From Paraburkholderia sp. NMBU_R16 (lineage in GTDB: Bacteria; Pseudomonadota; Gammaproteobacteria; Burkholderiales; Burkholderiaceae): a DNA stretch of 64,000 nucleotides. The notes under the pieces were generated by a model that saw nothing but the letters and a program-made list of their open reading frames with translations, made no database searches and had not been told where the DNA came from. The translations under genes were made by a program, and so were the position numbers. Below are positions 40,105 to 63,190 of the stretch, one piece after another. Position 1 is the stretch's first letter; each line of letters begins with the position of its first letter. Location: contig NZ_JAAAYE010000011.1 in the NCBI RefSeq assembly GCF_013282575.1, forward strand, positions 1 through 64,000, in the 5' to 3' direction.

Positions 40105-40132
40105 GCCGCCCAATGCTCGCGGAGATACGAAC

Positions 40133-41536: not shown

Positions 41537-41616
41537 CGGTCGATCAAGAGCGGCGTCTGCACCGGCACGTTGCGGGCGGGCGCCAAAACCAATAACCGGC
41601 ACGGGAGGGAAGGGTC

Positions 41617-42768
41617 ATGTGCTATTCGGTCGAGCGCGTTCGCGCATACGTAATGGTTGGATTCATCGCGCTGGCAGGCACGCTCGGGGCGTGTTCCATC
41701 GTGCCTGGTCAGCGCATGGATACGCCGGCGACCGTCGACGAGACCGGCGGCGAGTACAGCAAGGAGCCGGTGCAAAAGACGCAGATTCCGATCACCGACA
41801 TCAACCTCGCGTTGATCCGGCAAATAGGCACGCAGGCGGGCCAGCCCAAGCTTTCGCCGGAGATCCTGAGCTTGTTCGGCAAGCCCGGCGCGTACACCGT
41901 CGGCCCCGGCGACGTGCTGCAGATCACAGTCTGGGATCACCCCGAGCTTGCGGCCGCGCTCGGTCAGCCCGCGGCGACGACGCGCGACGCGGACGCGGCA
42001 CCGGGCTTCGTCGTCGACGAAGCGGGCAACATCCAGTTCCCGTATGCGGGCGTCGTGCATGTGGCCGGCGACAGCACCGAAACCATCCGGCGCAAGATCG
42101 TGTCGCGTATCAGCCGGGTCTACAAGAGCCCGGAAGTGACGGTACGTATCACCTCGTACCGCGCGTCGCAGATCTACGTCGACGGCGAAGTCGGCAAGCC
42201 GGGCGCCCAGCAGATCAACGACATCGGCATGACGCTCACGCAAGCCATCGGCCGCGCCGGCGGGTTCACGGGAGCCGCCGATCAGGGCGAAGTCACGCTC
42301 GTGCGCGGCGGCACCAGCTATCCGATCAATTTCAACGAGATCGTGAAGAGCGGACACAACCCCAACGATCTGGTTTTGAAGCCCGGCGACATGCTGCGGG
42401 TCGGTTCGCGTGACGAGCACGGTGTCTATGTAATGGGCGAGGTCAACAAGCCGGCGACCGTCCTGCCGATGCGCAACGGCAGGCTCTCGCTCGCGCAGGC
42501 GATCTCGGAGGCCGGCAGCATCAACCCGAACACTGCCAAGGCCAAGGAGCTCTTCGTCATTCGCACATCGACGACGGGCAACCAGCCGCAGATCTACCAC
42601 CTCGATGCCACGTCGCCCGTTTCGATGGTGCTCGCGAATCAGTTCGCGTTGGAGCCGAAGGACGTCGTGTATGTCGATAACGGTGGGCTCGTCAAGTTCA
42701 ACCGCGTGCTGAATCTGCTCTTGCCGGCAATCAACGCGGGGCTGACGGCGGCCATCGTGACCAAATAG
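41617..42768 (+). CDS. wza: Polysaccharide export lipoprotein Wza
   Basis: This 383-residue outer-membrane lipoprotein forms the octameric export channel. A signal with lipobox LAGTLGAC (Cys26) is followed by the polysaccharide-export domain (YTVGPGDVLQITVWDHPEL at about 91) and two SLBB domains (YRASQIYVDGEVGKPG; HGVYVMGEVNKPATV). The C-terminal amphipathic helix for membrane insertion (LNLLLPAINAGLTAAIVTK) is intact. A GGAGGG site precedes the start. Works with the Wzc kinase encoded next. Confidence 0.96.
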   Translation: MCYSVERVRAYVMVGFIALAGTLGACSIVPGQRMDTPATVDETGGEYSKEPVQKTQIPITDINLALIRQIGTQAGQPKLSPEILSLFGKPGAYTVGPGDVLQITVWDHPELAAALGQPAATTRDADAAPGFVVDEAGNIQFPYAGVVHVAGDSTETIRRKIVSRISRVYKSPEVTVRITSYRASQIYVDGEVGKPGAQQINDIGMTLTQAIGRAGGFTGAADQGEVTLVRGGTSYPINFNEIVKSGHNPNDLVLKPGDMLRVGSRDEHGVYVMGEVNKPATVLPMRNGRLSLAQAISEAGSINPNTAKAKELFVIRTSTTGNQPQIYHLDATSPVSMVLANQFALEPKDVVYVDNGGLVKFNRVLNLLLPAINAGLTAAIVTK

Positions 42769-42834
42769 TGCAACCCAATCGTCCCGCCGTGCGCGGCGCG
42801 GCATGACGGGACGGTTAGCAACGGGGCAACGGAT

Positions 42835-45078: not shown

Positions 45079-45147
45079 GATCGGCGATGCAAACTCACCG
45101 CGCCGGATTCGAAGCGGCGCGGCCACACCACAAAGAGGATATTGGCG

Positions 45148-46266
45148 ATGAACCAAAAGGTCGCGTTGATTACCGGGATCACCGGGCAGGACGGTTCCTA
45201 TCTGGCGGAGCTGCTGCTGGACAAAGGCTATGTCGTGCATGGTCTGAAGCGCCGCACTTCACTGTTCAATACGGACCGCATCGACCATCTGTATCGCGAT
45301 CCGCATGAAAGCGGCGAGCGGCTCACGCTGCATCATGGCGACCTGACCGATTCGGCGAGTCTGCTGCGCGTGATTCAAGCCATCGAGCCTGACGAGATCT
45401 ACAACCTGGCGGCGCAAAGCCACGTGCACGTGTCGTTCGACGAGCCCGAGTACACGGCGAACGCCGATGGCCTCGGTGCGCTTCGTATCCTCGAGGCCAT
45501 CCGTATCCTCGGCATGGAAAAGAAGGCGCGTTTTTATCAAGCGTCCACCTCCGAGCTATACGGTCTCGTGCAAGAAGTGCCGCAACGCGAGACGACACCG
45601 TTTTACCCGCGCAGTCCGTATGCGGTAGCGAAGCTCTTCGCGTACTGGACGACGGTGAACTACCGGGAGGCGTACGGCATCTATGCGTGCAACGGCATCC
45701 TGTTCAATCACGAATCGCCCGTGCGCGGCGAGACGTTCGTCACGCGCAAGATCACGCGCGCGCTTGCCCGCATCGCGGTGGGCATGCAAACGGAGCTGTA
45801 TCTGGGCAACCTCTCGGCGCTGCGCGATTGGGGTCATGCACGCGATTACGTCGAAATGCAGTGGATGATGCTGCAGCAGGAAGAGCCCGAGGATTTCGTC
45901 ATCGCGACGGGAGAGCAATACAGCGTGCGCGAGTTCGTCGAGCGTGCCGCGGCCGAGCTCGGCGTGACGATTCGCTTCGAAGGGAGCGGCGTGGATGAGG
46001 TGGGTATCGTCGAACAGGTGGCGAACCGCGAAATACGCGTGACGCCGGGCGACGTGATCGTCCGCGTCGATCCACGCTACTTCCGTCCGACCGAGGTCGA
46101 GACATTGCTCGGCGATCCGTCCAAGGCTCACGAAAAGCTCGGCTGGAAGCCGCGCACGTCGTTCGAGGCGCTGGTGAAGGAAATGGTCCGCGCCGATTAC
46201 CAGCTCGCGCGGCGCGATGCGCTCGTGACGCTGGCGGGCTTCACGGCGCTCGAACACCACGAGTGA
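45148..46266 (+). CDS. gmd: GDP-mannose 4,6-dehydratase
   Basis: This 372-residue SDR enzyme converts GDP-mannose to GDP-4-keto-6-deoxymannose. The NADP motif [12 protein letters not shown] is at residues 10-21, [18 protein letters not shown] at about 88, and the catalytic Thr/Ser-Tyr-Lys region in STSELYG and [10 protein letters not shown]. Its substrate comes from ManC and its product goes to Fcl, the next gene 13 bases downstream. Start ATG at 45148 is preferred over the TTG at 45142. Confidence 0.97.
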
Positions 46267-46279
46267 GGAGACCTGATCG

Positions 46280-47233
46280 ATGGACAAGGAAGCACGCATC
46301 TATGTGGCCGGCCATCGAGGTATGGTCGGCTCCGCACTCGTGCGCGAGCTCGATGCGCACGGTTATCGAAACATCATCACGCGCACGCACGCCGACCTGG
46401 ACCTGACGGATCAGCACGCCGTCAACGCGTTTTTTCACGATGCACGTGTGGACGTCGTGCTGCTCGCGGCGGCGCGCGTGGGCGGCATCCTCGCCAATGC
46501 CACGCAGCCGGCGCGCTTTCTCTACGAGAATCTCGCCATCGAGACCAACGTGATTCATGCGGCGTATCGCGCGCAGGTGGCGCGGCTCGTCTTTTTCGGC
46601 TCGTCATGCATCTACCCGAAGCTCTGTCCGCAGCCGATTCGCGAGGAGTACCTGCTCAGCTCGGCGCTCGAGCCGACCAACGATGCCTATGCGATCGCCA
46701 AGATCGCCGGTCTCAAGATGTGCAACGCCTACAACAGCGAATACGGCACGCATTACGTCTCGCTGATGCCGACCAATCTCTACGGTCCCAACGACAACTA
46801 CGATCCGCGCGGCTCGCACGTGCTGCCGGCGCTGATCCGCAAGGCACACGAGGCGAAGCTTGCGCATGCACCCCAACTGACTGTCTGGGGAACGGGCACG
46901 CCGAGGCGAGAATTTCTGCACGTCGACGATCTTGCCGCGGCTACGCGCTTCTTGCTCGAGGGCGACGTAGGGGAGGGGGTCTACAACGTGGGCGTGGGCG
47001 AAGACCTGTCTATCCGCGAGTTGGCCGAGTGCGTCGCGCGCATCGTCGGCTACGACGGCGAGCTGGTATTCGATGCGACGAAGCCCGACGGCACGCCGCA
47101 AAAGCTGCTCGACGTCTCCCGCCTCGCGCAGATGGGCTGGCGGGCGCGCATCGGCCTCGAAGAAGGCATCGCGCGGACTTACGAGGACTTTTGCTCGCAC
47201 CATTGCGAACTTGAAACGGCTTCGAACGGATGA
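46280..47233 (+). CDS. fcl: GDP-L-fucose synthase
   Basis: This 317-residue NADPH enzyme epimerises and reduces GDP-4-keto-6-deoxymannose to GDP-L-fucose. The N-terminal [16 protein letters not shown], the [15 protein letters not shown] segment and the catalytic Tyr-Lys in [15 protein letters not shown] are diagnostic of Fcl/WcaG. Together with gmd it indicates that the polymer contains fucose. The stop overlaps the next glycosyltransferase start (ATGA). Confidence 0.97.
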
Positions 47234-48429
47234 ATCGAAAAATGACAGCAACCGTGACGATCTTTCACAACGTAGTGTGGTCGCGCCACAAGGGCGTTGT
47301 GTTCTCAGCGCTGCACTCTTTGTCGACGAGCGGAGCCATCCGATACTCGATGGTCCAGATCGCCGATACCGAAACGGATCGTGTCGGCTTTTCGGACGTC
47401 GACTACTCGTTTCACCGGTACCCGATGCAAAAGCTCTTCGACGGGTGCTATGAAGATGTGCCGGCCTGGAAGATGATCGGGCGGTTGACATGGGAGGTCG
47501 TGAAGGCGAAGTCGGACCTGATCGTGCTGCCGGGCTACCACCGGCCCGAGTATTGGGCGATGCTGGCTGCCTGTATCGTCACGCGCAAGCGGCGCGCCGT
47601 GTTTTGCGATTCGACCGGGCGCGACAAGCCTCGCCGATTGGCCACGTCGATTCCGAAGCGAATCTTCTTCTCGCTTTGCGACGGTTACTTCGGTTTCGGC
47701 GAGCGCTCGCGCGAATACCTCGTCTCGCTCGGGGCGAAAGCGAACCGCATCTTCGTGCCTTGTCAGGCCGCGGCCTTGCCGCGCTCCTATTCGAGCGAGC
47801 ATGCACTCGATGCGCGTATCGACAAGCGCGCGAACGGCGAGCCGGTTTTTCTCTACGTCGGCCGGCTGTCAGAGGAAAAGAGCATCGATACGCTGATACG
47901 CGCATTCGCGCAGGTACGGATGAGCGTACCGTCGGCGACGCTGCGAATCGTCGGCACCGGACCGATGCTCGATCCGTTGAAGGCGCTCGTCGATTCGCTC
48001 GGCGTGCGCGGCACCGTGCATTTCGTCGGCAGTCTGCAAGACGAGCCGCTGTCGAACGAGTACTTCGGCGCGACGTGCCTCGTGCTGCCGAGCACGAGCG
48101 AGCCTTGGGGCCTCGTCGTCAACGAGGCGCTGAGCCACGGCTGTCCGGCGGTAGTCAGCGACCAGTGCGGCTGCGTGCCCGAGCTCGTCGTAAGGGGCGA
48201 AACAGGCTATGCGTTCGAAGCGGGCAACATCGCCGCGCTGCGCGACACGCTGTTGATGGCGATGGAGCGGTTCGCCGATACGCGCGCGACGGCTAAGCGG
48301 TGCCTCGAACGCATCGCGCGGTTCGATCCGCGCTCCGCGGCGGCCAATATCGCGCGCGGCTGCGCGACGATGCTCGTCGACAAGAGCGGCGATCAACCGG
48401 CGGCCGGCGCGGAGCGATTGCGGCAATGA
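47230..48429 (+). CDS. GT4 family glycosyltransferase
   Basis: This 399-residue cytosolic GT-B enzyme has the C-terminal nucleotide-sugar domain of GT4: [21 protein letters not shown] near residue 205, [10 protein letters not shown], and the E-x7-E type motif [22 protein letters not shown]. It presumably adds one sugar of the repeat unit; donor and acceptor are unknown. It overlaps both neighbours by four bases (ATGA on both sides), so the three genes are translationally coupled. Confidence 0.92.
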
Positions 48430-49682
48430 GGCTGCTCGTCTATGGTCTGAACTATGCGCCCGAGTTGACCGGCACTGGCAAGTACACGGCGGAGATGGCC
48501 GAGGCACTGGCCGTGCGCGGCCATGATGTGCGCGTCGTGACCGCGCCCCCGTACTACCCCGAGTGGCGCGTGGCCGAGGGGTGGCACGCCTGGCGTTACC
48601 GGCGCGAAACGCGGGCGGGCGTAACCGTCTGGCGGGCGCCGTTATGGGTGCCGGCGCGCCCCAGTGGCGCGACGCGTCTCGTGCACTTGGCTTCGTTCGC
48701 GCTGAGTTCGGCCGTGCCGATGGCGCGTCAGTTGCGCTGGCGGCCCGATGTCGTCATGGCTGTCGCGCCGACGCTGCTGTGCGCTCCTGCCGCGCTGGCG
48801 GTGGCGCGCATGACGGGTGCGCGCTCGTGGCTGCATGTGCAGGACTTCGAAGTGGATGCGGCGTTTGGCCTGGGCATGCTTCAGAGCCCTCGCGCGGCCA
48901 GGCTCGCGCGTGGCGTCGAGCGGTCGCTGCTCACGCGCTTCGATGTCGTCTCGTCGATCTCGGCGAAGATGGTCGAGCGGCTTTCGCGTCTCGGCGTCGA
49001 CGCATCGAAAGCGTTTTGCGCACCGAACTGGGTCGATGTCGAAGGGATCCGTCCGCTCGATCGCCCGAGCGGGTATCGGCGAACGCTTGCGATCCGCGAT
49101 GACGCGAAAGTGGTGCTGTACGCGGGCAACATGGGAACGAAGCAGGGGCTCGAGCATCTCGTCCATGCGGCTATCCTGCTCGCACATCGTAGCGACATCT
49201 GCTTCGTCTTTTGCGGCGAAGGTCCGACAAAGGCCCGTATCGCCGAGCGGTGCGCGGGTCTCCCGAACTGCCGCGTGCTGGGCCTGCAGCCTGCCGAACG
49301 TCTGAACGAGCTGCTCAATCTCGCCGATATCCATGCGCTGCCGCAGCGCGCCGATGCGGCCGATCTGGTGATGCCTTCGAAGCTCACGGGCATGATGGCC
49401 AGCGCGCGCGCCATTGTGGCGATGGCGCGTTGCGGGACGGAACTTCATGACGCGGTCGCCCCGCGCGGGATCGTCGTCGAACCCGACGATGCGCGCGCGT
49501 TTGCGGAGGCGATCGTGAATCTTGCCGACGATCCGGCACGTCGCGCGAGGCTCGGCGCGGCGGCGCGGCGCTTCGCCTGCGAGACGCTGTCCACGGCATC
49601 GGTGTTGGCGCGCTTGGAGGCGCGGCTCGTCGAATGCGCCCGGCGAGCCAGGCCGGCGATCGAATCCCGGCGGGCCGGGTGA
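48426..49682 (+). CDS. WcaI-like GT4 glycosyltransferase
   Basis: This 418-residue GT4 enzyme starts with [21 protein letters not shown] and continues VVTAPPYYPEW, the pattern of colanic acid WcaI proteins, proposed fucosyltransferases. The C-terminal half has VVLYAGNMGTKQGLEHLV and LPQRADAADLVMPSKLTGMMAS. In this GDP-fucose-making operon, fucose transfer is a reasonable inference. Start overlaps the previous stop (ATGA). Last gene of this part of the operon; a 425-base gap follows. Confidence 0.9.
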   Translation: MRLLVYGLNYAPELTGTGKYTAEMAEALAVRGHDVRVVTAPPYYPEWRVAEGWHAWRYRRETRAGVTVWRAPLWVPARPSGATRLVHLASFALSSAVPMARQLRWRPDVVMAVAPTLLCAPAALAVARMTGARSWLHVQDFEVDAAFGLGMLQSPRAARLARGVERSLLTRFDVVSSISAKMVERLSRLGVDASKAFCAPNWVDVEGIRPLDRPSGYRRTLAIRDDAKVVLYAGNMGTKQGLEHLVHAAILLAHRSDICFVFCGEGPTKARIAERCAGLPNCRVLGLQPAERLNELLNLADIHALPQRADAADLVMPSKLTGMMASARAIVAMARCGTELHDAVAPRGIVVEPDDARAFAEAIVNLADDPARRARLGAAARRFACETLSTASVLARLEARLVECARRARPAIESRRAG

Positions 49683-50107
49683 CCCGCGGGGCTTGGGTGC
49701 CCCGTGCCGGTGCGGCACAACCTTCACTGATGCCCCATTGAAGTGCGCGAGCATTGGCAGCCCTGCCGGGTCCGCCGATAAAACCCGTCACTGATCCCCC
49801 TAGCTCAAGCCTGGCTTGCATCGGCACGCTAATTGCGTTGATGCGTTCCAACGTCCGGTTGCCTGCCGAACGGCCGGCGCTGCGGGTTTTCCCCGTATCG
49901 CGCTCGGCCCCGCAGCCGGCTACCGTGGCGTTGAGCACCGGCGAAGCGAGATCGACCGGGCTTTCGAGTGCGGCCGCCGCGTGCGGCCGCCTCCATCGAA
50001 GAATGCTTGATACCGAACGACTGCGTCCCGATGAGGACGATAGTCGGGCTCGACGGGGCCATGCTGTGAGCGCCAACGGCCCCGAATAACGGACGGGAAT
50101 ATCGGCC
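49683..50107. other. gap between the polysaccharide operon and the ATP-grasp cluster
   Basis: No gene was supported. The gap contains the sigma54-type element at 49821-49837 and, upstream of it, an inverted repeat GTGCC-N5-GGCAC (49704-49708 and 49714-49718) that could be an enhancer site or end of the previous transcript. About 270 bases of possible leader lie between the sigma54 element and the first gene. Confidence 0.5.
49821..49837 (+). promoter_or_regulatory. sigma54 (-24/-12) promoter element
   Basis: TCGGCACGCTAATTGCG has GG at 49823-49824, exactly ten bases, then GC at 49835-49836. It matches the TGGCACG-N4-TTGC consensus except for C in place of the first T. It points towards the ATP-grasp/alpha-E/transglutaminase genes. 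Sigma54 use implies an activator ATPase; none is encoded in the window. Confidence 0.65.
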
Positions 50108-51580
50108 ATGACGCAAGCCTTCTTCAGCGAGATGTTCGAGCGCGATGGGCCCGCTATCGCGGGCGTGCCGCCAGCCGAGTTTCCGGGCTGCGGCGAGACA
50201 CGCGCGCACTACCGTGAATTCCACGGGTGGATGTGCGCGCAAAGCGAGCAGCAAATTGCGAACAAACGCGCCGAGGCGGATCTGAACTTCCGCCGCGTGG
50301 GCATTACGTTCGCCGTCTATGGCGCAAAGGACGAGACCGGGGTCGGCACCGAGCGTACGATTCCGTTCGACGTCATTCCGCGCATCTTTCCGGCACACGA
50401 GTGGGCGGCCCTCGAGCGGGGCCTGCGCCAGCGCGTTTGCGCGCTGAACCGCTTCATTCACGACGTCTATCACGATCAGGCGATCATGCGCGCGGGCGTC
50501 ATTCCCGCGGAGCAGATCCTCGCCAACGGGCAGTACCGTCCGCAGATGCAAGGCGTGGATGTGGCGCGCGATATCTACGCGCACATCGCCGGCATCGACA
50601 TCGTGCGTGCGGGTGCCGGCGAGTTCTACGTACTCGAGGACAACCTGCGGGTCCCCTCCGGCGTGTCGTACATGCTCGAGAACCGCAAAATGATGATGCG
50701 GCTCTTCCCCGATCTCTTTGCGCGCAATCGCGTCGCGCCGGTCGCGCATTATCCCGACCTGCTGCTCGATACACTGCGCTCGGCGGCACCGCACGGCGCG
50801 GCCGACCCGACGATCGTCGTGCTCACCCCGGGCATGTACAACTCGGCGTATTTCGAGCATGCGTTTCTCGCACAGCAAATGGGCGTCGAGCTGGTCGAGG
50901 GGCAGGATCTGTTCGTCGAGGGCGGCTTTGTCTATATGCGGACCACGCAGGGGCCGCAGCGCGTCGACGTGATCTACCGGCGGGTCGACGACGACTTTCT
51001 CGACCCGGAGGTGTTCCGACCGGATTCGACGCTCGGCGCGGCCGGTTTGCTCGCGGCCTACCGCGCTGGCAACGTGACGTTGGCCAATGCGGTGGGCACC
51101 GGTGTCGCCGACGACAAGTCGATCTATCCGTACGTGCCGGACATGGTGCGGTTCTATCTCGGCGAGGAGCCGATCCTCAACAACGTGCCGACGTGGATGT
51201 GCCGCAAGCCGGACGACCTGCGCTACGTGCTCGATCATCTGTCGGAACTCGTCGTCAAGGAAACGCACGGCGCGGGCGGCTACGGGATGCTCGTCGGTCC
51301 CGCGTCGAGCGCGGCCGAGATCGAAGCGTTTCGCGCCGCGTTGATTGCGCAGCCCGACAAGTACATCGCGCAGCCGACACTGGCGCTCTCGACCTGCCCG
51401 ACCTATGTCGAGGCAGGCATTGCCCCGCGCCACATCGATTTGCGGCCGTTCGTGCTCTCGGGCAGCGAAGTGCGGATGGTGCCCGGAGGCCTCACGCGCG
51501 TTGCGTTGCGCGAGGGCTCGCTCGTCGTCAATTCTTCGCAAGGGGGCGGCACCAAGGACACCTGGGTGCTCGAACAGTAG
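50108..51580 (+). CDS. Circularly permuted ATP-grasp type 2 protein
   Basis: This 490-residue protein belongs to the family with fused DUF404/DUF407 regions, a circularly permuted ATP-grasp fold predicted to form amide or peptide bonds. Typical segments are FDVIPRIFPAHEWAALERGL (~88), YVLEDNLRVPSGVSYMLENR (~177), TPGMYNSAYFEHAFLAQQMG (~240), VVKETHGAGGYGMLVGP (~381) and the C-terminal GGLTRVALREGSLVVNSSQGGGTKDTWVL. First gene of a cluster with alpha-E and transglutaminase genes, the usual association. Its substrate is unknown to me. Confidence 0.93.
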   Translation: MTQAFFSEMFERDGPAIAGVPPAEFPGCGETRAHYREFHGWMCAQSEQQIANKRAEADLNFRRVGITFAVYGAKDETGVGTERTIPFDVIPRIFPAHEWAALERGLRQRVCALNRFIHDVYHDQAIMRAGVIPAEQILANGQYRPQMQGVDVARDIYAHIAGIDIVRAGAGEFYVLEDNLRVPSGVSYMLENRKMMMRLFPDLFARNRVAPVAHYPDLLLDTLRSAAPHGAADPTIVVLTPGMYNSAYFEHAFLAQQMGVELVEGQDLFVEGGFVYMRTTQGPQRVDVIYRRVDDDFLDPEVFRPDSTLGAAGLLAAYRAGNVTLANAVGTGVADDKSIYPYVPDMVRFYLGEEPILNNVPTWMCRKPDDLRYVLDHLSELVVKETHGAGGYGMLVGPASSAAEIEAFRAALIAQPDKYIAQPTLALSTCPTYVEAGIAPRHIDLRPFVLSGSEVRMVPGGLTRVALREGSLVVNSSQGGGTKDTWVLEQ

Positions 51581-51647
51581 GTCGCGCGGTACCGCCGCAT
51601 TTTCGCTCTTGCCACCGAACGCATCGCCACGAAGGCATCGAGACTGT

Positions 51648-52700
51648 ATGTTAAGCCGCACCGCCGACCATCTCTTCTGGATGGCTCGCTATACCGAGCG
51701 GGCCGAGAACACGGCTCGCATGCTCGATGCGAACTATCAAATGGCGCTGTTGCCGCAATCGGACGAGTACGCGGCGCTGGGCTGGCGCGCCATGCTGTCC
51801 ATTTCCGAGCTCGCGGACATCTACACGGCCACGCATCCGAGCATGACGAGCCGCGATGTGATCGCCTTCATGTCGAGCGATCGCGACAACCTCTCGTCGA
51901 TCGTCAACTGCTTGCGTGCCGCGCGGGAAAACGCACGCGCCGTGCGCGGCGCGATCACGACCGATCTTTGGGAAACGCTCAACACGACGTGGCTCGAGTC
52001 GCAGCGCATGCTAGCCGACGGCGTTCTCGATCGCGATCCGGGCCAGTTCTTCGAGTGGGTCAAATACCGCTCGCATCTATCGCGCGGCGTGCAACTCGGC
52101 ACCATGGTCAAGGACGAGGCGTTTTACTTCATGCGCCTGGGCACGTTCATCGAGCGGGCCGACAACACCGCGCGCATTCTCGACGTCAAGTACGAGATGC
52201 TCGAGCAACGCGGCGGCATGCTGACCCAGCCGCTCGCGCAGTCGCTCGATTACTATCACTGGGCGGCAGTGCTGCGCTCGGTGTCGGGCTTCGAGGTCTA
52301 TCGCAAGGTCTACCGCGATGTGATCACGCCGGAGCGCGTCGCCGACTTGTTGATCCTCTTCGCGGACTGGCCGCGCTCGCTGGCGGCAAGCCTCGACGAA
52401 GTTCGCCAGATCATCGCGCGTGTGCGTAACGCGCGCTCCGCGCACGCCGAGGCGATGGCCGTGCAGCTTCATGCCGATGTGCGCGCCGCGTCGATCGGCG
52501 ACATCCTGAGCGGGGGCCTGCATGCCTGGCTGACCGATTTCCTCGTGCGGATCAACGAACTCGGCAGCCGTGTCAGCCGCGATTTTCTCGTGCCGCTCGC
52601 GCCGGAACCCGAGGCTGCCGTCGTTCAAACAGCATCTCAGTCCCAGTCGCAATCATCGCAGTCGCAATCGCAGTCCCAGTCTCAGCCGCACGCGGCATGA
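51648..52700 (+). CDS. alpha-E domain protein
   Basis: This 350-residue all-helical protein starts MLSRTADHLFWMARYTERAE, the alpha-E signature, and repeats a related helix pattern at FMRLGTFIERADNTARIL. Alpha-E proteins almost always accompany circularly permuted ATP-grasp proteins and are predicted to work with them, possibly as a carrier or catalytic helper. The C-terminal 20 residues are a Ser-Gln repeat tail. It starts 67 bases after the ATP-grasp gene. Confidence 0.92.
   Translation: MLSRTADHLFWMARYTERAENTARMLDANYQMALLPQSDEYAALGWRAMLSISELADIYTATHPSMTSRDVIAFMSSDRDNLSSIVNCLRAARENARAVRGAITTDLWETLNTTWLESQRMLADGVLDRDPGQFFEWVKYRSHLSRGVQLGTMVKDEAFYFMRLGTFIERADNTARILDVKYEMLEQRGGMLTQPLAQSLDYYHWAAVLRSVSGFEVYRKVYRDVITPERVADLLILFADWPRSLAASLDEVRQIIARVRNARSAHAEAMAVQLHADVRAASIGDILSGGLHAWLTDFLVRINELGSRVSRDFLVPLAPEPEAAVVQTASQSQSQSSQSQSQSQSQPHAA
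52636..52688 (+). repeat. CAGTCN hexamer repeats encoding a Ser-Gln tail
   Basis: Successive CAGTCC/CAGTCG/CAATCG units encode alternating Gln and Ser at the end of the alpha-E protein. The array is imperfect and in frame, so unit gain or loss would change only tail length. Confidence 0.7.
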
Positions 52701-52746
52701 GCGCCGCGGCCGAAACGTTTCCCGCTTACCGCTTCGAGGTACTCAC

Positions 52747-55700
52747 GTGTCGATTCGCGTCGCGTTAAATCATGTCACGCAGTACCGCTACGACCGCCTG
52801 GTCACGCTCGGACCTCAAGTCGTCCGGCTGCGACCGGCGCCGCATTGCCGCACGCCCATCCTCGGGTATTCGATGCGCGTCGAGCCGGCGGACCATTTCG
52901 TCAATTGGCAGCAGGATGCCTTTGCGAACTACCAGGCGCGCCTCGTCTTTCCCGAGCCCACGCGCGAATTCCAGGTCACGGTCGATCTCGTGGCCGAAAT
53001 GTCCGTCTACAACCCGTTCGATTTCTTCCTCGAACCGGAGGCGGAGAAATTTCCGTTCACTTACGCGAGCGCGCTTGCCGCCGAACTGGCGCCGTATCTC
53101 GTGCGCGCGGCCGAGCCGACGCCGCGGTTCGCCGCTTTCGTCGAAAGCATCGACCGCACGCCGTGCGGCACGGTCGATTTTCTCGTTGCGATCAACCAGC
53201 GTCTCGCGGACGAAATCGGCTATTTGATCCGCATGGAGCCCGGCGTGCAAACGCCGGAAGAAACACTCGAAAAAGGCTCGGGCTCGTGCCGCGACACCGG
53301 TTGGCTGCTCGTCGAAACGCTGCGCCATCTCGGCTTTGCCGCGCGCTTCGTCTCGGGCTATTTGCTGCAGCTCGCCCCCGATGAGAAAGCGCTCGATGGT
53401 CCGAGCGGAACGGAGGTCGACTTCACCGACCTGCACGCGTGGTGCGAGGTCTATCTGCCGGGCGCCGGTTGGATCGGCTTCGATCCCACATCGGGGCTGC
53501 TCGCCGGCGAAGGGCATATTCCGGTCGCGTGCACGCCGCAGCCCGGCAGCGCGGCGCCGGTAGCGGGCGCACTCGACGAATGCGAGGTCGAGTTTTCGCA
53601 CAGCATGTCGATCACGCGCGTGCTCGAGACGCCGCGCGTGACGAAGCCTTACGACGAAGCGCTCTGGCAGGACATCGAGCGCGTCGGCGCGCACGTGGAC
53701 GCCGATCTTGCGTCGATGGACGTGCGCCTCACGATGGGCGGCGAGCCGACGTTCGTCTCGGTGCGCGAGCGCGATGCCGCCGAGTGGAACACCGATGCGC
53801 TCGGGCCGACCAAGCGTGGCTATGCGGTCTCGCTGATGGACAAGCTGCGAGACCGATACGGCGCGAACGGCTTTTTGCACGTGGGGCAGGGCAAGTGGTA
53901 TCCGGGTGAGCAACTACCGCGCTGGGCGCTGTCGCTCTTCTGGCGCGCGGATGGCGAGCCGTGCTGGCAGGATCCGACGCGCTTCGCCGACGAACGCGAG
54001 ACGATGCACTACACGGCCGACGACGCAGGCCGGTTCATCCGCCGTCTGGCGGACAAGCTCGCGCTCGACGACACGCATATCCAGCCCGGCTACGAGGATG
54101 TCTGGTATTACCTATGGCGCGAGCGACGCTTGCCGGTGAACGTCGATCCGTTCGATTCACGTCTCGACGACGAGCTCGAACGCCTGCGGCTGCGGCGGAT
54201 CTTCGATGCGGGCCTGGCAGCCGTGACCGGTTACGCACTGCCGCTTGCGCGTGAACGGGACACGGCGGCAACACTCGCAGGCCCGCGCTGGATCACGGGA
54301 CCTTGGTTCTTTCGCGACGAGCGTATGTACCTGATCCCGGGCGACTCGCCGATGGGCTATCGGTTGCCGCTCGATTCACTGCCCTGGGTCGGTGCGGCGG
54401 ACCATCCCCGGCTGCACGAGCACGATCCGTTCGGGCCGCCGGCCGCGTTGCGCAGCGCCACGCAATTGCGTGCGCAGTATGCGTCGCCGCAAAACGCGGC
54501 AGACGACGTTGCGAAGCCCATCCGGGCCGCTGGTGACGCCGGCGCATCGCGAGCGGAAGGCAGCGGTGCTGCCGCGGCCGATGAGCGGATGCCGGAGCAC
54601 GGCGAGTCGGCGGCATGGCTGCATCGCACGGCGCTTTGCGTCGAAGCGCGCGATCCGACGCGCGCGGCCGGGCCGCAGGCCGAAGCCGACGCCGCCGCGG
54701 CGGGCCGCAAAGGCGGCGCGCTTTATGTCTTCATGCCGCCGCTGGCCGCGCTCGACGACTATCTCGATCTGCTGGCGGCCGTCGAGGCGACGGCTGCGGA
54801 CCTGCAGGTCAAGATCGTGATCGAAGGATATCCGCCGCCGCGCGATGCGCGCCTGAAGCTGCTGCAGGTGACGCCCGATCCCGGCGTCATCGAAGTCAAC
54901 ATCCACCCGGCCGCGACGTGGAGCGAGCTCGTCGACAACACCGCATTCCTTTACCGCGCCGCGCACGAATCGTATCTGGGCCCCGAAAAGTTCATGCTCG
55001 ACGGACGCCATACGGGTACGGGCGGCGGCAATCACATGGTGCTGGGCGCCGCGACGCCGGCCGACAGCCCATTTCTGCGCCGCCCCGATCTGCTCGCAAG
55101 CCTCATCGGCTATTGGCACAACCATCCTTCGCTGTCGTACCTGTTCTCCGGGCTCTTCATCGGTCCGACGAGCCAGGCGCCGCGCGTCGACGAGGCCCGC
55201 AACGATCAGCTCTACGAGCTCGAGATCGCGTTTCGCGAGCTGCAGCGTCAGCTCGACGGACTCGCGGCGCTCGGCGAGGGCGAAGAGTCGGTGCCGCCCT
55301 GGCTCATCGATCGCGCCTTGCGCAACATCCTCATCGACGTCACGGGCAACACGCACCGCGCCGAATTCTGCATCGACAAGCTCTATTCGCCGGACGGTCC
55401 CACGGGCCGGCTGGGCTTGCTCGAGCTGCGCGGCTTCGAGATGCCGCCGCATGCGCGCATGAGCCTCGCGCAGCAGCTCCTGCTGCGTGCGCTCGTCGCG
55501 CGTTTTTGGCGCACGCCGAACACGACGCGTCTCACGCGTTGGGGCACGGAATTGCACGATCGGTTCATGTTGAGCACCTTCGTGCAGATGGATTTCGACG
55601 ATGTGCTCGCCGATCTTCGCGCGGCCGGCTACGCGTTCGATCGTGCCTGGTTCGCGCCGCATTTCGAGTTCCGCTTTCCGCTCGTCGGCGAGTTCGATGC

Positions 55701-56226
55701 GAGCGGCGTCGCGCTGACGCTGCGCCATGCGCTCGAGCCCTGGCACGTCATGGGCGAGGAGGGAGGGCCGGGCGGCACCGTGCGCTTCGTCGATTCTTCG
55801 CTCGAGCGCATCGAGGTGCGCGCGCTCGGCCTCAACGAAAACCGCCATACCGTAACGGTCAACGGCGTGCCGCTGCCGCTGCAGCCCACGGGCCGTGCGA
55901 GCGAGTACGTGGCGGGGGTGCGCTTTCGCGCATGGCAGGCGACATCGTCGCTCCACCCGACCATCGGCGTGCATGCGCCGCTCACGTTCGATCTCGTCGA
56001 CAACTGGGCCGAGCGCTCGCTCGGCGGATGCCAGTATCATGTCGCACATCCGGGTGGACGCAATTATCAGACGTTTCCCGTCAATGCCTACGAAGCCGAG
56101 AGCCGGCGGCGTGCGCGCTTCTTTACGATCGGTCACACGCCCGGGCCGATGTCCGTAAAGGCGCGCGAGCGCAGCCTCGAGATGCCTTTTACACTCGATC
56201 TGCGGCGTGTCGGCGGCGACGACTGA
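52747..56226 (+). CDS. Large transglutaminase-like protein with DUF2126
   Basis: This 1159-residue protein has an N-terminal bacterial transglutaminase-like domain (about 1-300) with a complete Cys-His-Asp set: Cys181 in GSGSCRDTGWL, His230 in DLHAWCEVYL and Asp246 in IGFDPTSG. The rest is the long DUF2126 region (about 320-1155) with LTMGGEPTFVS, LHVGQGKWYPGE, GTGGGNHMVLGA and a C-terminal LVDNWAERSLGGCQYHV. The family is thought to act as protease or amide-cleaving/transferring partner for products of the ATP-grasp enzymes. It uses a GTG start at 52747; the open frame upstream overlaps the alpha-E gene. Confidence 0.93.
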   Translation: MSIRVALNHVTQYRYDRLVTLGPQVVRLRPAPHCRTPILGYSMRVEPADHFVNWQQDAFANYQARLVFPEPTREFQVTVDLVAEMSVYNPFDFFLEPEAEKFPFTYASALAAELAPYLVRAAEPTPRFAAFVESIDRTPCGTVDFLVAINQRLADEIGYLIRMEPGVQTPEETLEKGSGSCRDTGWLLVETLRHLGFAARFVSGYLLQLAPDEKALDGPSGTEVDFTDLHAWCEVYLPGAGWIGFDPTSGLLAGEGHIPVACTPQPGSAAPVAGALDECEVEFSHSMSITRVLETPRVTKPYDEALWQDIERVGAHVDADLASMDVRLTMGGEPTFVSVRERDAAEWNTDALGPTKRGYAVSLMDKLRDRYGANGFLHVGQGKWYPGEQLPRWALSLFWRADGEPCWQDPTRFADERETMHYTADDAGRFIRRLADKLALDDTHIQPGYEDVWYYLWRERRLPVNVDPFDSRLDDELERLRLRRIFDAGLAAVTGYALPLARERDTAATLAGPRWITGPWFFRDERMYLIPGDSPMGYRLPLDSLPWVGAADHPRLHEHDPFGPPAALRSATQLRAQYASPQNAADDVAKPIRAAGDAGASRAEGSGAAAADERMPEHGESAAWLHRTALCVEARDPTRAAGPQAEADAAAAGRKGGALYVFMPPLAALDDYLDLLAAVEATAADLQVKIVIEGYPPPRDARLKLLQVTPDPGVIEVNIHPAATWSELVDNTAFLYRAAHESYLGPEKFMLDGRHTGTGGGNHMVLGAATPADSPFLRRPDLLASLIGYWHNHPSLSYLFSGLFIGPTSQAPRVDEARNDQLYELEIAFRELQRQLDGLAALGEGEESVPPWLIDRALRNILIDVTGNTHRAEFCIDKLYSPDGPTGRLGLLELRGFEMPPHARMSLAQQLLLRALVARFWRTPNTTRLTRWGTELHDRFMLSTFVQMDFDDVLADLRAAGYAFDRAWFAPHFEFRFPLVGEFDASGVALTLRHALEPWHVMGEEGGPGGTVRFVDSSLERIEVRALGLNENRHTVTVNGVPLPLQPTGRASEYVAGVRFRAWQATSSLHPTIGVHAPLTFDLVDNWAERSLGGCQYHVAHPGGRNYQTFPVNAYEAESRRRARFFTIGHTPGPMSVKARERSLEMPFTLDLRRVGGDD

Positions 56227-56244
56227 CCGAAGCCAGAGAGCCTT

Positions 56245-58884
56245 TTGCCTTTTCAATCGACCCTGCCGTTCGATGCCGCGGCCGATGTCGCCGATGCGCT
56301 CGCGCGATTGCTCGACGTTCCGGCGCGCGCCGGCCATTGGGACGAGCTGCGCGATGCCACGGGCGCGTTGCGCACGCCGTGGCGGCGTTTTTTCGGCCTG
56401 CTGGGCGTGGACGGCGTCGCGGGCCTCGAGCATGCGGCCGCCGCTATCGCGCGGCAGATCCGTGACAACGACATCACCTATAACGTCTATGCCGACAACG
56501 GCGAGCCGCGGCCCTGGGCGCTCGATCTGCTCCCGTTCATCGTCGACGAGAACGAATGGGCGACGATCGAGCGCGGCGTCGCGCAGCGCGCGCGGCTGCT
56601 GGAGGCGCTCATCGCCGATATCTATGGAGCGCAGACAGTGCTGGCGCGCGGCTTGTTGCCGCCGGCGCTCGTATTCGGGCATCCGGGCTATCTGCGGCCG
56701 ATGAAGGGATGCGTGCCGCCGGGCGGCCGATATCTGCAGATCGTGGCCGTCGATCTGGCCCGCGGGCCCGGTGGCGAATGGACCGTCATGGGCCACCGCA
56801 CGCAGGCGCCGTCGGGGCTCGGCTACGCACTGGAGAACCGGCTCATCGTGTCGAGCCTGTTCGCTCAGCCGTTTCGCGCGCTCGGCGTGCAACGGCTCGC
56901 CCCGTCGTACTCGCAGTTGATCGCGACGCTCGCGCAGGCGGCGCGCGCGACGATGACCGACGACGAGCGGCAGGCCCGCGCCGGCTCGCCGCATATCGCG
57001 CTGTTGAGCCCGGGGCCGTTCAGCGAGACCTATTTCGAGCATGCGTTCCTGTCGCGCTATCTCGGCCTCACGCTCGTCGAAGGCAGCGATCTCACGGTGC
57101 GCGGCGACAAACTCTATCTGAAGACGTTGGCGGGCCTCGAGCGCGTGCACGGCCTGCTGCGCCGCCTCGACGACAGTTTTTGCGATCCGGTCGAACTGCG
57201 CGCCGACTCGAGCATCGGCGTGCCGGGCCTGCTGGAGGTCATGCGCGCCGGCAACGTCGTCGTATCCAACGCGCCGGGGGCCGGTGTGGTCGAGTCCGCG
57301 GCGCTGCACGGTTTCTTGCCCCGTATCGCCGAAGCGTTGTTCGGCGAGCCCCTCGCTTTGCCGAGCGTCGCCAGTTGGTGGTGCGGCGAAGCGGCCGTGC
57401 TCGAAGACGCATTCGGCCGGCTCTCCGATGCATGGCTCGCGCCGACCTGGGCAGGACTGCCGCATCCGGCCTCATCCGACATGCCGCCCGGGCTCGCGGC
57501 CGGACCGCAGCGTCTGGCCGACTGGCGCGCGCGCATCGAGCAGGCGCCCGATGCGTTCACGATACAGGCGCCGCTGCCGTATTCGTGCGCGCCGCGCTAT
57601 GAGGACGGCACGTTATCGCACCGGCCCTGCGCGCTGCGCGTGTATGCGATCGCAGGGGCGTCGGGCGGCTGGCAGGTGCTGCCGGGCGCTTTCACGCGCA
57701 TGGCGGGCGACCGGCAAACGAGCGTCTCGATGCAGTCCGGTGGCAGCAGCGTCGATACCTGGGTGCTGTCGAGCCGACCGGGCTCGACGTTTTCGCTGTT
57801 GCCCACTCCGATGAAGCCTGGCGATTTCGCGTATCGCCGCCGCACCGTATCGAGCCGCGCCGCCGAAAACCTGTTTTGGGCCGGGCGCTACAGCGAGCGC
57901 GCGGAAAACAGCGTGAGGCTCGCCCGCCTCATTCTCGGCTCGCTCGACGGCCACGATTCCGAGGAGATGCTGGGCACGCTCGTGGAGCTCGCCGCGCGCT
58001 TCGAGCTGATTGGACCTGCCGAACCGGCGGCCCAGACCACGCGCCATGCGTTCGAACGCGCGCTGGTGGCCAGTTTGCACGAGCACTCGGGCACGGCCAG
58101 CATCGGTCGCATCATCGCGAGCCAGGCACGAGCTTGCGGCGAAATCCGCGCGCGGCTCTCGAACGACCACTGGCGGACGATTCTCGCCGCGCGCAACGAT
58201 TTTCGCGATGCGCTGCATGCGCTGTCGCTCGTGCCGCCATCGAACACGCAGGACGAGGACGCGGGGCAGGGCGAGCGCTACGATTCGTACGATCGGGTCG
58301 CGCTGATGAACGCGCTGGAGACGCTCGCGATGCAGCTTTCGGCCATCAGCGGGGCGCAGGGCGATCGCATGGTCCGCGACGAAGCATGGCGGCTGCTCTT
58401 CGCGGGCCGGCACATCGAGCGCGTGATCGGGATGACGACGCTGTTGCGCGTCGTGGCCGACGCCGGCGTGTTGGCCACGCCTGCCGGCTTCGATCTGCTG
58501 CTGCAGCTTTTCGACAGCACGCTGACCTATCGCTCGCTCTATCCGGGGCGGCTCGAGGTGCCCGCATTGATCGATCTCGTCGTCGTGGACCCGACGAATC
58601 CGCGCGGGCTCTACGGAGTCTACGAGCGGCTCGCGAAGAAACTCGACGAGATCGCCGCGGCTGCGGGCGGCGCGGTGCGGCGTCCGTTCGGCGAGGCCAT
58701 GCCTCCCGTATCGTCGCTGCCGACGCTCGAGCGCCTTTGCAGTACCGACGCCGCGGGGCGCTATGCGACGCTCGCCGCGCTATGCGACGAACTGGCCTCC
58801 CACGTGGCCGCGGCGTCGAACGAGATCAGCAGCCGCTACTTCTCCCATGCGGACAACCCGCTGGCAGCGAGGCTATCGACATGA
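56245..58884 (+). CDS. Fusion of circularly permuted ATP-grasp and alpha-E domains
   Basis: This 879-residue protein joins in one chain what the first two genes of the cluster encode separately. Residues about 1-500 form the ATP-grasp part (YNVYADNGEPRPWALDLLPF, APSGLGYALENRLI, SPGPFSETYFEHAFLSRYLG, FTRMAGDRQTSVSMQSGG). From about 530, AAENLFWAGRYSERAENSVRL starts an alpha-E domain to the end. The start is TTG at 56245, 18 bases after the previous stop. The ATP-binding core deviates from the 490-residue copy, for example in the region matching its KETHGAGGYG, so the two may differ in activity. Confidence 0.9.
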   Translation: MPFQSTLPFDAAADVADALARLLDVPARAGHWDELRDATGALRTPWRRFFGLLGVDGVAGLEHAAAAIARQIRDNDITYNVYADNGEPRPWALDLLPFIVDENEWATIERGVAQRARLLEALIADIYGAQTVLARGLLPPALVFGHPGYLRPMKGCVPPGGRYLQIVAVDLARGPGGEWTVMGHRTQAPSGLGYALENRLIVSSLFAQPFRALGVQRLAPSYSQLIATLAQAARATMTDDERQARAGSPHIALLSPGPFSETYFEHAFLSRYLGLTLVEGSDLTVRGDKLYLKTLAGLERVHGLLRRLDDSFCDPVELRADSSIGVPGLLEVMRAGNVVVSNAPGAGVVESAALHGFLPRIAEALFGEPLALPSVASWWCGEAAVLEDAFGRLSDAWLAPTWAGLPHPASSDMPPGLAAGPQRLADWRARIEQAPDAFTIQAPLPYSCAPRYEDGTLSHRPCALRVYAIAGASGGWQVLPGAFTRMAGDRQTSVSMQSGGSSVDTWVLSSRPGSTFSLLPTPMKPGDFAYRRRTVSSRAAENLFWAGRYSERAENSVRLARLILGSLDGHDSEEMLGTLVELAARFELIGPAEPAAQTTRHAFERALVASLHEHSGTASIGRIIASQARACGEIRARLSNDHWRTILAARNDFRDALHALSLVPPSNTQDEDAGQGERYDSYDRVALMNALETLAMQLSAISGAQGDRMVRDEAWRLLFAGRHIERVIGMTTLLRVVADAGVLATPAGFDLLLQLFDSTLTYRSLYPGRLEVPALIDLVVVDPTNPRGLYGVYERLAKKLDEIAAAAGGAVRRPFGEAMPPVSSLPTLERLCSTDAAGRYATLAALCDELASHVAAASNEISSRYFSHADNPLAARLST

Positions 58885-59768
58885 GCGGCGAGCTGAAGTT
58901 ATCGGTTTCGCACGTCACGACCTATCGCTACACGATGCCGGTCGAGACGGCGCAGCATCTCGCCACACTCCGTCCGCTCGATTGCGCCTGGCAGCGTGTG
59001 GTCTCGCATCGTTTGAAGATCGACCCCGCGCCCGCTTACGAGAGCGCTCACATCGATGCGTTCGGTAACGAGGTGCGTTACTTTTCCTTCGAGGCCCCGC
59101 ACGACTACCTCGAAGTCACGAGCGAAACGACAGTCCAGTTGGCCGAGCGCTGGGCGGCGCTCGATGTGTGGGCGACACCGGCCTGGGACACTGTCGCCGC
59201 CGCCCTGCGGTATCGCGCCGGCGAACCCTATATGCCCGAGAGCGAATTCCTCTTCGCATCGCCGAACATCGCGCTCGCACCGGAGCTGCGGGCGTACGCC
59301 CAATCGAGCTTCGCGCCTGGCACACCGCTCGTCGTGGGGGCCACCGACCTCATGCATCGGATCCATGCCGATTTCGTCTACGCGCCGCAGGCCACCGAAT
59401 TCGATACGCCCGCGCTGCGCGCGTTTCATTTACGGCAGGGGGTCTGCCAGGACTACGCGCAAGTGATGATTGGATGCCTGCGTTCGATCGGCTTGGCGGC
59501 TCGCTACGTGAGCGGCTACTTGCGCACGGTGCCACCCGAGGGGACACCGCGGCTCATCGGCGCCGACGCTTCCCACGCGTGGGTATCGGTGTTTTGTCCC
59601 GGGATCGGCTGGGTCGATCTCGATCCCACCAACGATGTGCTGGCCGACCTCGATCACGTGACGCTCGGCTATGGGCGCGACTATACCGACGTATCGCTGC
59701 TGCGCGGCATCATCCTCGGCGGCGGGGAGCATACGGTCGAAGTCGCCGTCCATGTAGCCGCGCAGTAG
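58881..59768 (+). CDS. Small transglutaminase family protein
   Basis: This 295-residue cytosolic protein is a single transglutaminase-like domain with an N-terminal beta part (VSHVTTYRYTMPVETAQHL) and a complete Cys189-His232-Asp248 set in RQGVCQDYAQVM, DASHAWVSVF and WVDLDPTND. It is related to the N-terminal part of the 1159-residue protein. The start overlaps the stop of the ATP-grasp/alpha-E fusion (ATGA), so they are coupled. It ends the cluster and faces a convergent gene 15 bases away. Confidence 0.93.
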   Translation: MSGELKLSVSHVTTYRYTMPVETAQHLATLRPLDCAWQRVVSHRLKIDPAPAYESAHIDAFGNEVRYFSFEAPHDYLEVTSETTVQLAERWAALDVWATPAWDTVAAALRYRAGEPYMPESEFLFASPNIALAPELRAYAQSSFAPGTPLVVGATDLMHRIHADFVYAPQATEFDTPALRAFHLRQGVCQDYAQVMIGCLRSIGLAARYVSGYLRTVPPEGTPRLIGADASHAWVSVFCPGIGWVDLDPTNDVLADLDHVTLGYGRDYTDVSLLRGIILGGGEHTVEVAVHVAAQ

Positions 59769-61468: not shown

Positions 61469-63190
61469 ATGTTTGTCGATACGCGGACTGTCGATGAGGG
61501 ATACATCGTCGAAGCTACGGTATGTATTGTCGGCGCGGGCGTGGCGGGGATTACGCTCGCACTTGAAATGAATCGGCTCGGCATCGATACATGCCTGCTC
61601 GAAAGCGGCGGATATAAGGCCGACGACGAAACGCGGGATTTGTATCGGGGAGAGAATGCCGGCCTGCCATACTCTTTCGCCGATGGCAGCCGCAGCCGTT
61701 TTCTCGGCGGGAGCAGCAATTGTTGGGGCGGCTGGTGCCGCCCGCTCGATCCATGGGACTTCGACAAGCGCGAGTGGGTGCCGCATAGCGGCTGGCCTTT
61801 CGGGCTCGACGAGCTGGCGCCCTACTATGCGCGCACGCATGCGTGGCTCAAGCTCGGCCCGAACAACTTCGATCCGGACTTCTGGGAGCGCGCGATCGGG
61901 CGGCCGGACGTGCGCCGCATTCCGCTCGTGACGGGCAAGGTGCGCGATACGGTCGCGCAGTTCAGCCCGCCCGCGCGCTTCGGCAAGCTCTATCGCAGCG
62001 CGCTCGAGCGTTCGGCATGCGTACGGGTTTTTCTGCATGCCAATGCGGTCGATATCGAGACCGACCGCACCGCCTCGCACGTGACGGGCATTGCAGTCGC
62101 CACGCTATCGGGCCGCCGCATCGCCGTGCGTGCGAAACAGTACGTGCTTGCCGCGGGCGGTATCGAGAACGCACGCATTCTGCTCGCTTCCAATCGCGTG
62201 CAGCCGGCGGGGCTCGGCAACGGCAACGATGTCGTCGGCCGGTTCTTCATGGACCATCCGCGCATCATGTCCGCGAGCGTCCGGTTCTCCGACGCGTGGG
62301 CGCGCAACAAGCTCTACGACATCAAGTTCCATTACCAGAACGCCGCCGTGGCCGCGTTGGGCACACCGATCTCGTCGCAGTTCGCGTTGACGCCCGACGT
62401 GCTGCAGCGCGAGCAACTGTTGAACTCGCGCGTCTGGTTCTTCTCCCTGTTCTACGGCGAGGGCAGCGCCGGCGCCGAGGCGCTGATCCGCTGCAAGCAG
62501 GCGCTGTTGAAGAAAGATCAACCGGGGTGGCGCTTGCGCGACGATGTGGCCACGATGGCCGCCCATCCCATCGATACGATCGGCTTTGGCTTGACGCGGC
62601 TTTTTCAGCCGCGTGCGCTGATCACCGATGTCAAACTGCAGGCGATCGTCGAGGCGGCGCCGAATCGCGATTCGCGCGTGACGTTGAGCGAATCGCGCGA
62701 CCGGCTCGGCATGCCACGCGTCAAGGTTGCATGGCGGCTCGATTCGCTCGTGCAGCGCACGTTCGACCGGACCTTCGCCTTGCTGGCCGAGGAACTGCGT
62801 GCGACGGGCGTCGCGCAAGTGCGGCTCGACGAGCCGCTCGAGGGCCGTGCGTGGCCGTCGTCGCTCGAAGGGACCTGGCATCACATGGGCACCACACGCA
62901 TGCACGATTCTCCGCGCGAAGGCGTGGTCGACCGGGACTGCAAAGTTCACGGCGTCGACAATCTGCACATTGCCGGCTCGTCCTTGTTCCCGAGCGTGGG
63001 CGCCAATTTTCCCACCATCACGATCACGGCCCTGGCGCTGCGGCTGGCCGAGCGACTGGCCTCTTCGCTCGGCAGGGTCGATGCATTCCCGGCGAGCAAC
63101 GATGCTTACGCGAACGCCGGCGGCAACAACGCGAAGGTCGATTCCCTGCCGTTCGCGGCCGCGACGCTCTCGCGCATTGCAAAGGAGTGA
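61469..63190 (+). CDS. GMC family FAD-dependent oxidoreductase
   Basis: This 573-residue flavoenzyme begins with an FAD motif VCIVGAGVAGITLALEMNRLG (about 18-38). Further FAD contacts are GGSSNCWGGWCRPL (~80) and AAGGIENARILL (~221). The C-terminal GMC region has TWHHMGTTRM (about 472) and NLHIAGSSLFPSVGANFPTITITALALRLAE. GMC enzymes oxidise alcohols or sugars. Standing between an acetyltransferase and a glycosyltransferase, it may oxidise a sugar or lipid part of the polymer, but this is inference. GGGGAAAAAG precedes the ATG. The 196-base upstream gap is AT-rich and likely holds its promoter. Confidence 0.9.
   Translation: MFVDTRTVDEGYIVEATVCIVGAGVAGITLALEMNRLGIDTCLLESGGYKADDETRDLYRGENAGLPYSFADGSRSRFLGGSSNCWGGWCRPLDPWDFDKREWVPHSGWPFGLDELAPYYARTHAWLKLGPNNFDPDFWERAIGRPDVRRIPLVTGKVRDTVAQFSPPARFGKLYRSALERSACVRVFLHANAVDIETDRTASHVTGIAVATLSGRRIAVRAKQYVLAAGGIENARILLASNRVQPAGLGNGNDVVGRFFMDHPRIMSASVRFSDAWARNKLYDIKFHYQNAAVAALGTPISSQFALTPDVLQREQLLNSRVWFFSLFYGEGSAGAEALIRCKQALLKKDQPGWRLRDDVATMAAHPIDTIGFGLTRLFQPRALITDVKLQAIVEAAPNRDSRVTLSESRDRLGMPRVKVAWRLDSLVQRTFDRTFALLAEELRATGVAQVRLDEPLEGRAWPSSLEGTWHHMGTTRMHDSPREGVVDRDCKVHGVDNLHIAGSSLFPSVGANFPTITITALALRLAERLASSLGRVDAFPASNDAYANAGGNNAKVDSLPFAAATLSRIAKE

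Follow-up and report, generated by a model that had tools for sequence, protein, structure and literature searches.

An ATP-grasp/alpha-E/transglutaminase cluster of Paraburkholderia with probable nitrogen-starvation control, one probably inactive ligase copy, and a putative DUF2126 ligase

Several described systems come close to the gene cluster reported here. The Anbu operon (PP_2685-2688 in P. putida) consists of ATP-grasp, alpha-E, transglutaminase, and Anbu genes; in B. cenocepacia H111, genes I35_5080-83, encoding DUF404/407, DUF403, transglutaminase, and large transglutaminase proteins, form one NtrC- and sigma-54-dependent cluster (PMC5491218); and the same domain set characterizes the amidoligase systems for peptide modification that Iyer et al. 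predicted in 2009, as summarised in PMC3597751 and PMC5666114. Anbu/alpha-E/ATP-grasp systems are common, with alpha-E proteins in 81 of the 150 genomes of our order sample, and their substrate is still without a name in the literature found; no functional study of such a system turned up in searches of a library of open-licence papers. Here, we analyzed five contiguous plus-strand genes (A to E) in a 64,000-nucleotide stretch, hereafter the window, of contig NZ_JAAAYE010000011.1 from Paraburkholderia sp. NMBU_R16 (genome of 6.28 Mb in 562 contigs, 99.99% complete). An earlier note, made from the sequence alone, had placed these genes in the families listed below and the cluster in a predicted amidoligase/peptidase-type system with no known product; the Pfam domain matches bear out the families, and the wider placement is supported. 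With Pfam scores far above the curated thresholds, and with the same genes grouped again in relatives, the cluster is not a product of chance. It genuinely belongs to a predicted system that is widespread, and the new reading of it is that one ligase copy is probably dead and DUF2126 is probably the other ligase.

Gene A, 50108..51580, plus strand: ATP-grasp protein, glutathione/glutathionylspermidine-synthetase-like, motif residues kept (CP_ATPgrasp_2, E 3.4e-170)
Gene B, 51648..52700, plus strand: alpha-E helical protein (Alpha-E, E 7.8e-94)
Gene C, 52747..56226, plus strand: Bact_transglu_N, Transglut_core, and DUF2126; transglutaminase-like Cys hydrolase fused to a glutamine synthetase (GS)-fold putative ligase
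Gene D, 56245..58884, plus strand: CP_ATPgrasp_2 and Alpha-E in a single frame, predicted pseudo-ATP-grasp, TTG start
Gene E, 58881..59768, plus strand: second transglutaminase-like Cys hydrolase (Bact_transglu_N and Transglut_core)

Gene C begins with a GTG at 52747 in a frame open already from 52570, and the start of E lies inside the end of D (4-bp overlap). With the Anbu operon, the cluster has in common the ATP-grasp, alpha-E, and transglutaminase-like genes and, probably, the control by nitrogen limitation; it differs in that no Anbu was detected in the genome and in the addition of C (transglutaminase-DUF2126), D, and E. Among the loci collected, some relatives have Anbu directly adjoining A and B. 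Unlike the H111 cluster, the window has no separate transglutaminase-like gene (T) between B and C; in four Burkholderia loci (L137, L142, L143, and L147) the genes run A B T C D E, and this third transglutaminase-like gene adjoins B in L037, L048, L053, L056, L137, and L142. The closest named relatives of D, among the matches listed, come from Paraburkholderia, Caballeronia, and Burkholderia, at 65-69% identity.

The two ATP-grasp copies differ in their cores. Gene A matches PDB 3n6x (phmmer, E 1.3e-214) and carries all the marks of a CP_ATPgrasp ligase, namely the family match, the Asp/Glu-x-Asn motif, and the Gly-rich loop; D164, E177, and N179 as well as the loop (GGYGM) are kept in 71/71 split, A-type proteins, the window's own among those with the three residues. 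The Glu/Asn pair is absent from all 101 fused, D-type copies and from 29/29 copies of a phylum-wide sample (29 of the 30 best loci, from 112 matching genomes among 200), and the Gly-rich loop is unconserved in D-type copies; gene D itself retains the family match and lacks the pair. Both types keep the overall fold and share residues that include RRxDD and a D-x-W near the end. D thus appears to be a long-conserved ATP-grasp stripped of its catalytic residues and, because the Glu/Asn pair is lost and the loop unconserved, it is unlikely to act as a second conventional ligase. The earlier note had read the two copies as the same module present twice, one making and the other editing a conjugate, which finds no support here; the condition that it set for its own refutation, both cores without ATP-binding residues, holds for the D core but not for the A core. 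No sequence occurs twice among the 71 of A type or the 101 of D type (named and unnamed loci may share organisms), and these sets were obtained after six A-type sequences shorter than 440 aa and one D-type sequence shorter than 780 aa had been dropped. Counts at positions 164, 177, 179, 181, 336, 337, and 384 come from an alignment with seven over-long D frames trimmed N-terminally, and all other residue counts from alignments in which one of the 101 D rows (L146, with a long N-terminal extension) is misaligned.

The alpha-E part of D, judged by its residues, seems to have changed in parallel with its ATP-grasp half. Both E-R pairs (E17-R18 and E169-R170) are present in 73/73 B-type proteins and in 97 to 101 of the 101 D copies. 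Residues N81, R93, N95, E109, N112, D172, R176, and D179 are invariant or nearly so in B and unconserved in D, where an Arg at position 93 is found in 31/101 copies. The genome search for alpha-E yielded no gene beyond B and D of the cluster.

An intact Cys-His-Asp set had earlier been credited to the second transglutaminase; this holds for E (C189/H232/D248) but not for E alone, since the triad of C is intact too (C181/H230/D246), and both E and the N-terminus of C carry the Cys-His-Asp signature of papain-like/transglutaminase Cys hydrolases. In the E-type alignment, Cys and Asp are found in 101/101 sequences and His in 99, the remaining two being gaps. The nearest solved structure to the transglutaminase part of C is 3isr, which bears the annotation of a putative cysteine protease. 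In its DUF2126 half, C has the GS catalytic fold; this half is a putative ligase, and it is more likely than D to be the second ligase of the cluster.

Gene order is variable among relatives, with C-D-E as the commonest block. In the order sample, where D type was assigned by alpha-E score and frame length, DUF2126 occurs in 50 genomes, fused D in 27, and Anbu in 75. All 50 DUF2126 genomes have alpha-E; each of the 27 D genomes holds at least one further alpha-E match beside the fused gene, and 26 have DUF2126, the exception (G144, 84% complete) being without C. Among the named D loci (the best 80 of at least 588, biased to close relatives), E is present in 78, C in 71, and all three in 69, and the 30 best phylum-wide D loci have E as a neighbor in 30/30 and C in 25/30 within short flanks. 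At these top phylum-wide loci, the predicted dead ATP-grasp has thus remained next to E and usually to C as well. Two D-type loci among the burkholderial matches (L092 and L151) carry the titles of Bradyrhizobium and Akkermansia muciniphila metagenome-assembled genomes (MAGs) and are possibly binning errors.

No Anbu gene lies in the window, as had been noted, and the genome-wide search proposed at the time agrees: a 17-protein Anbu profile found nothing in the whole genome at E <= 1, the same profile being positive in the 75 order genomes at E <= 1e-20. The sole PF00227 match in the genome is HslV, adjoining HslU (two open frames read). Alpha-E is present in 74 of the 75 Anbu genomes, and Anbu in 74 of the 81 alpha-E genomes. 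Six of the seven alpha-E genomes without Anbu carry C and D, the window's included, and the seventh (G110) has a partial alpha-E match. With G110 excluded, Anbu is missing in 6/27 D carriers versus 0/53 others (Fisher 0.001; 0.005 with G110 counted), an association that rests on six genomes and whose Fisher values overstate independence because the genomes are related. Anbu may be dispensable where the C-D-E trio exists. Two Anbu genes per locus were seen in L050, L059, and L061, and two Anbu matches each in G023, G060, G090, G114, G115, G128, G131, and G144.

GCAC-N7-GTGC is the arrangement recognized as that of NtrC. Two promoter-like elements precede gene A:

NtrC-like site TGCCCCATTGAAGTGCG, 49731..49747, plus strand: one mismatch from GCAC-N7-GTGC
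Sigma-54 -24/-12 promoter-like element TCGGCACGCTAATTGCG, 49821..49837, plus strand: best matrix match near gene A

The sigma-54 element, about 74 bp downstream of the NtrC-like site, sits in a 425-bp intergenic stretch ahead of gene A. It ranks first among the 43968 positions of the 22 kb around it, and third when both strands of the entire window are scored. In all loci, the window included, the best matches of the locus were looked for within 400 bp upstream of each cluster gene; a gene was left out if its upstream sequence was short or its start incomplete. A top-3 match of the own locus was found there for 30/63 A genes that open their unit and for 1/8 behind another cluster gene; for C, the counts were 51/70 and 0/34. 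Pooled, A and C genes first in their unit had rank 1 in 42/133 and rank 3 or better in 81/133 cases, versus means of 1.3 (maximum 7) and 3.9 (maximum 17) with 60 column-shuffled matrices. Upstream of these units, 25 GCAC-N7-GTGC pairs occur in 21/133 regions versus 3.1 expected, the next-best spacing (N5) giving 9 versus 3.1. The sigma-54 element is absent from the earlier note, and sigma-54-like sites at window positions 5709 and 28698 score slightly higher than the one before gene A.

NtrC-dependent transcription has been published for relatives of the cluster (PMC5491218, PMC7801951). Without ntrC, I35_5080-83 were down 8.2-, 9.4-, 9.4-, and 6.0-fold, and they are listed as common sigma-54 and NtrC targets (PMC5491218); in three P. 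putida strains, nitrogen limitation raised PP_2686-2688 about 11- to 37-fold (PMC7801951), PP2685-2687 were up under nitrogen limitation (PMC3325844), and PP_2685 and PP_2688 were up on nitrate (PMC8050072). In marine metagenomes, the system's domains correlate with urea-metabolism domains (PMC3597751). From these reports and the computed promoter elements, we infer that the window's cluster is probably under nitrogen-starvation control as well. Nitrogen control of the relatives was already known; what is new is that the promoter elements are conserved and that they stand ahead of an Anbu-less variant.

The reading that we consider reasonably likely is that the cluster is a cytoplasmic amide-conjugation and -deconjugation system under NtrC and sigma-54, used when nitrogen is scarce, with A and DUF2126 as ligases and D dead. 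The families, folds, residue losses, gene order, and promoter elements were computed here, and others have shown NtrC dependence for relatives and phosphate release from ATP by the ATP-grasp of the Y. bercovieri operon (PMC6376114); the partner roles, the direction of the reactions, and the kind of substrate are proposals. Nitrogen starvation would turn on, through NtrC and sigma-54, two ATP-dependent ligases of different folds and two thiol hydrolases: (i) A would be active as an ATP-grasp ligase from the glutathione/glutathionylspermidine-synthetase superfamily and, as the fusion of both modules in D suggests, would work in a complex with its alpha-E partner B; (ii) the DUF2126 half of C would be a second, GS-fold ligase tethered to a Cys hydrolase (the transglutaminase half), a fusion that suggests coupling of ligation and hydrolysis; and (iii) E would be a second Cys hydrolase or transferase working on the product. 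D, as a catalytically dead ATP-grasp with alpha-E, would most likely be a non-catalytic partner that holds the substrate or assembles C and E, since it is without the metal-ligand pair, occurs only where a split alpha-E is present, and is nearly always found with E and mostly with C. That a GS-fold ligase stands together with a glutathione-synthetase-like ATP-grasp points to a small peptide or peptide-amine that would be assembled step by step and that the hydrolases may then trim. The analysis thus indicates a condition in which to look (nitrogen starvation, with NtrC on) and probable catalysts (A and DUF2126, not D). A hydropathy scan of all five proteins revealed no N-terminal hydrophobic segment and no membrane stretch; therefore, the system is most likely cytoplasmic, and the cell-surface site once suggested for the conjugate is disfavored.

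Several points weigh against this reading. The correspondence of E177/N179 in A to the Mg ligands E330/N332 of GspS and E144/N146 of human glutathione synthetase, which we assume, comes from the motif and the residue numbering, and the A profile had no significant match to the single E. coli glutathionylspermidine synthetase/amidase (Gss) sequence in hhalign. The lysine at A position 384 is present in 72/101 D copies (Ala in the window's D), and the loss of catalytic residues is no proof that all catalysis by D would be gone. By itself, Foldseek gave a weak glutamine synthetase match for DUF2126 (best E 0.013), and a GS-like active site, with metal-ligand Glu/His and phosphate Arg residues, is only putative for E333, E716, N718, H763, R856, R859, E893, and R895, which are invariant in 41/41 sequences. 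Nine of the 80 named D loci have no C in the locus sequence covered; because four of these (L107, L113, L117, and L118) have more than 5 kb before D, and D directly follows T in L152, C is not always beside D, and in these five D-E pairs it is either located elsewhere or lost. The sigma-54 matrix was built from a consensus, its element lies 270 bp from the gene A start codon, the window's NtrC-like copy is imperfect, and 52/133 A and C upstream regions rank worse than 3; top-3 matches were also few for D genes first in unit (2/13, versus 1/87 behind) and reached 5/10 for E (versus 4/99 behind). PP_2685 changed by 1.12, 4.81, and 1.45 in three strains, barely in two of them (PMC7801951), and a term search of the main text of a Paraburkholderia phymatum nitrogen-starvation paper gave no transglutaminase or ATP-grasp (PMC5748707).

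A rather unlikely alternative is protein tagging and turnover, in which the ligases would put amino acids or a short peptide on proteins and the Cys hydrolases, with Anbu where it occurs, would remove the tag or degrade the protein, recycling nitrogen. The co-occurrence of alpha-E with Anbu, a proteasome relative, the nitrogen-starvation control of relatives together with the promoter elements, and the fold that DUF2126 shares with Pup-pathway enzymes, among them Dop (7oyh), are consistent with it. However, the Dop match is weak (Foldseek E 0.11), a tag-protein gene was not noticed in the cluster, Anbu was not found in this genome, and in the published tests Y. bercovieri Anbu had no peptidase activity and no specific interaction with other operon proteins (PMC6376114).

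Glutathione synthesis and glutathionylspermidine metabolism offer analogies to the amide-conjugation reading rather than membership. The former employs a GS-fold glutamate-cysteine ligase and an ATP-grasp glutathione synthetase, and the feature in common is a GS-fold protein paired with a glutathione-synthetase-like ATP-grasp; the window differs in its fused hydrolase domain, alpha-E proteins, and pseudo-ATP-grasp, and nothing points to glutathione as the product. E. coli Gss likewise combines a ligase with a thiol amidase; for Gss and YgiC/YjfC, however, there was no significant hhalign match, the amidase domain is of a different type (CHAP), and we know of no GS-fold partner for them. It is a rather unlikely proposal that the cluster is an unrecognized nitrogen-starvation metabolite pathway of the glutathione kind, in which the GS-fold half of C would form the first amide, A and B would add the second unit, D as a dead ligase would be the scaffold for C and E, and C-D-E would have taken over the Anbu step, so that Anbu can be lost.

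It is improbable that the cluster serves nitrogen scavenging, by which the transglutaminase-like domains would strip glutamine-like side chains or conjugates of ammonia or amines, leaving carboxylates for the ligases to re-use. NtrC control in relatives, the intact triads, and a link between transglutaminase and ammonia release raised for the Anbu operon (PMC6376114) fit such a role, but scavenging needs no ATP-spending ligases, and 3isr is annotated as a protease, not an amidotransferase. That both ATP-grasp/alpha-E modules are catalytic, as first proposed, is very improbable, since the fold, RRxDD, and D-x-W retained in both types and the lysine 384 of most D copies stand against a Glu/Asn pair gone from every D copy examined, an unconserved loop, and an Ala for that lysine in the window's D.

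Directly upstream of the cluster (window 38329-49682) lie polysaccharide genes, which encode a ManC-type nucleotidyl transferase/mannose-phosphate isomerase, a sugar transferase, an SLBB export protein, a Wzc-like kinase, a GDP-mannose dehydratase, an epimerase, and two glycosyltransferases; exopolysaccharide synthesis in B. cenocepacia is under NtrC control according to the title of PMC5491218. Downstream, window 61469-63190 encodes a protein with matches to a GMC oxidoreductase C-terminal domain and to FAD-binding domains.
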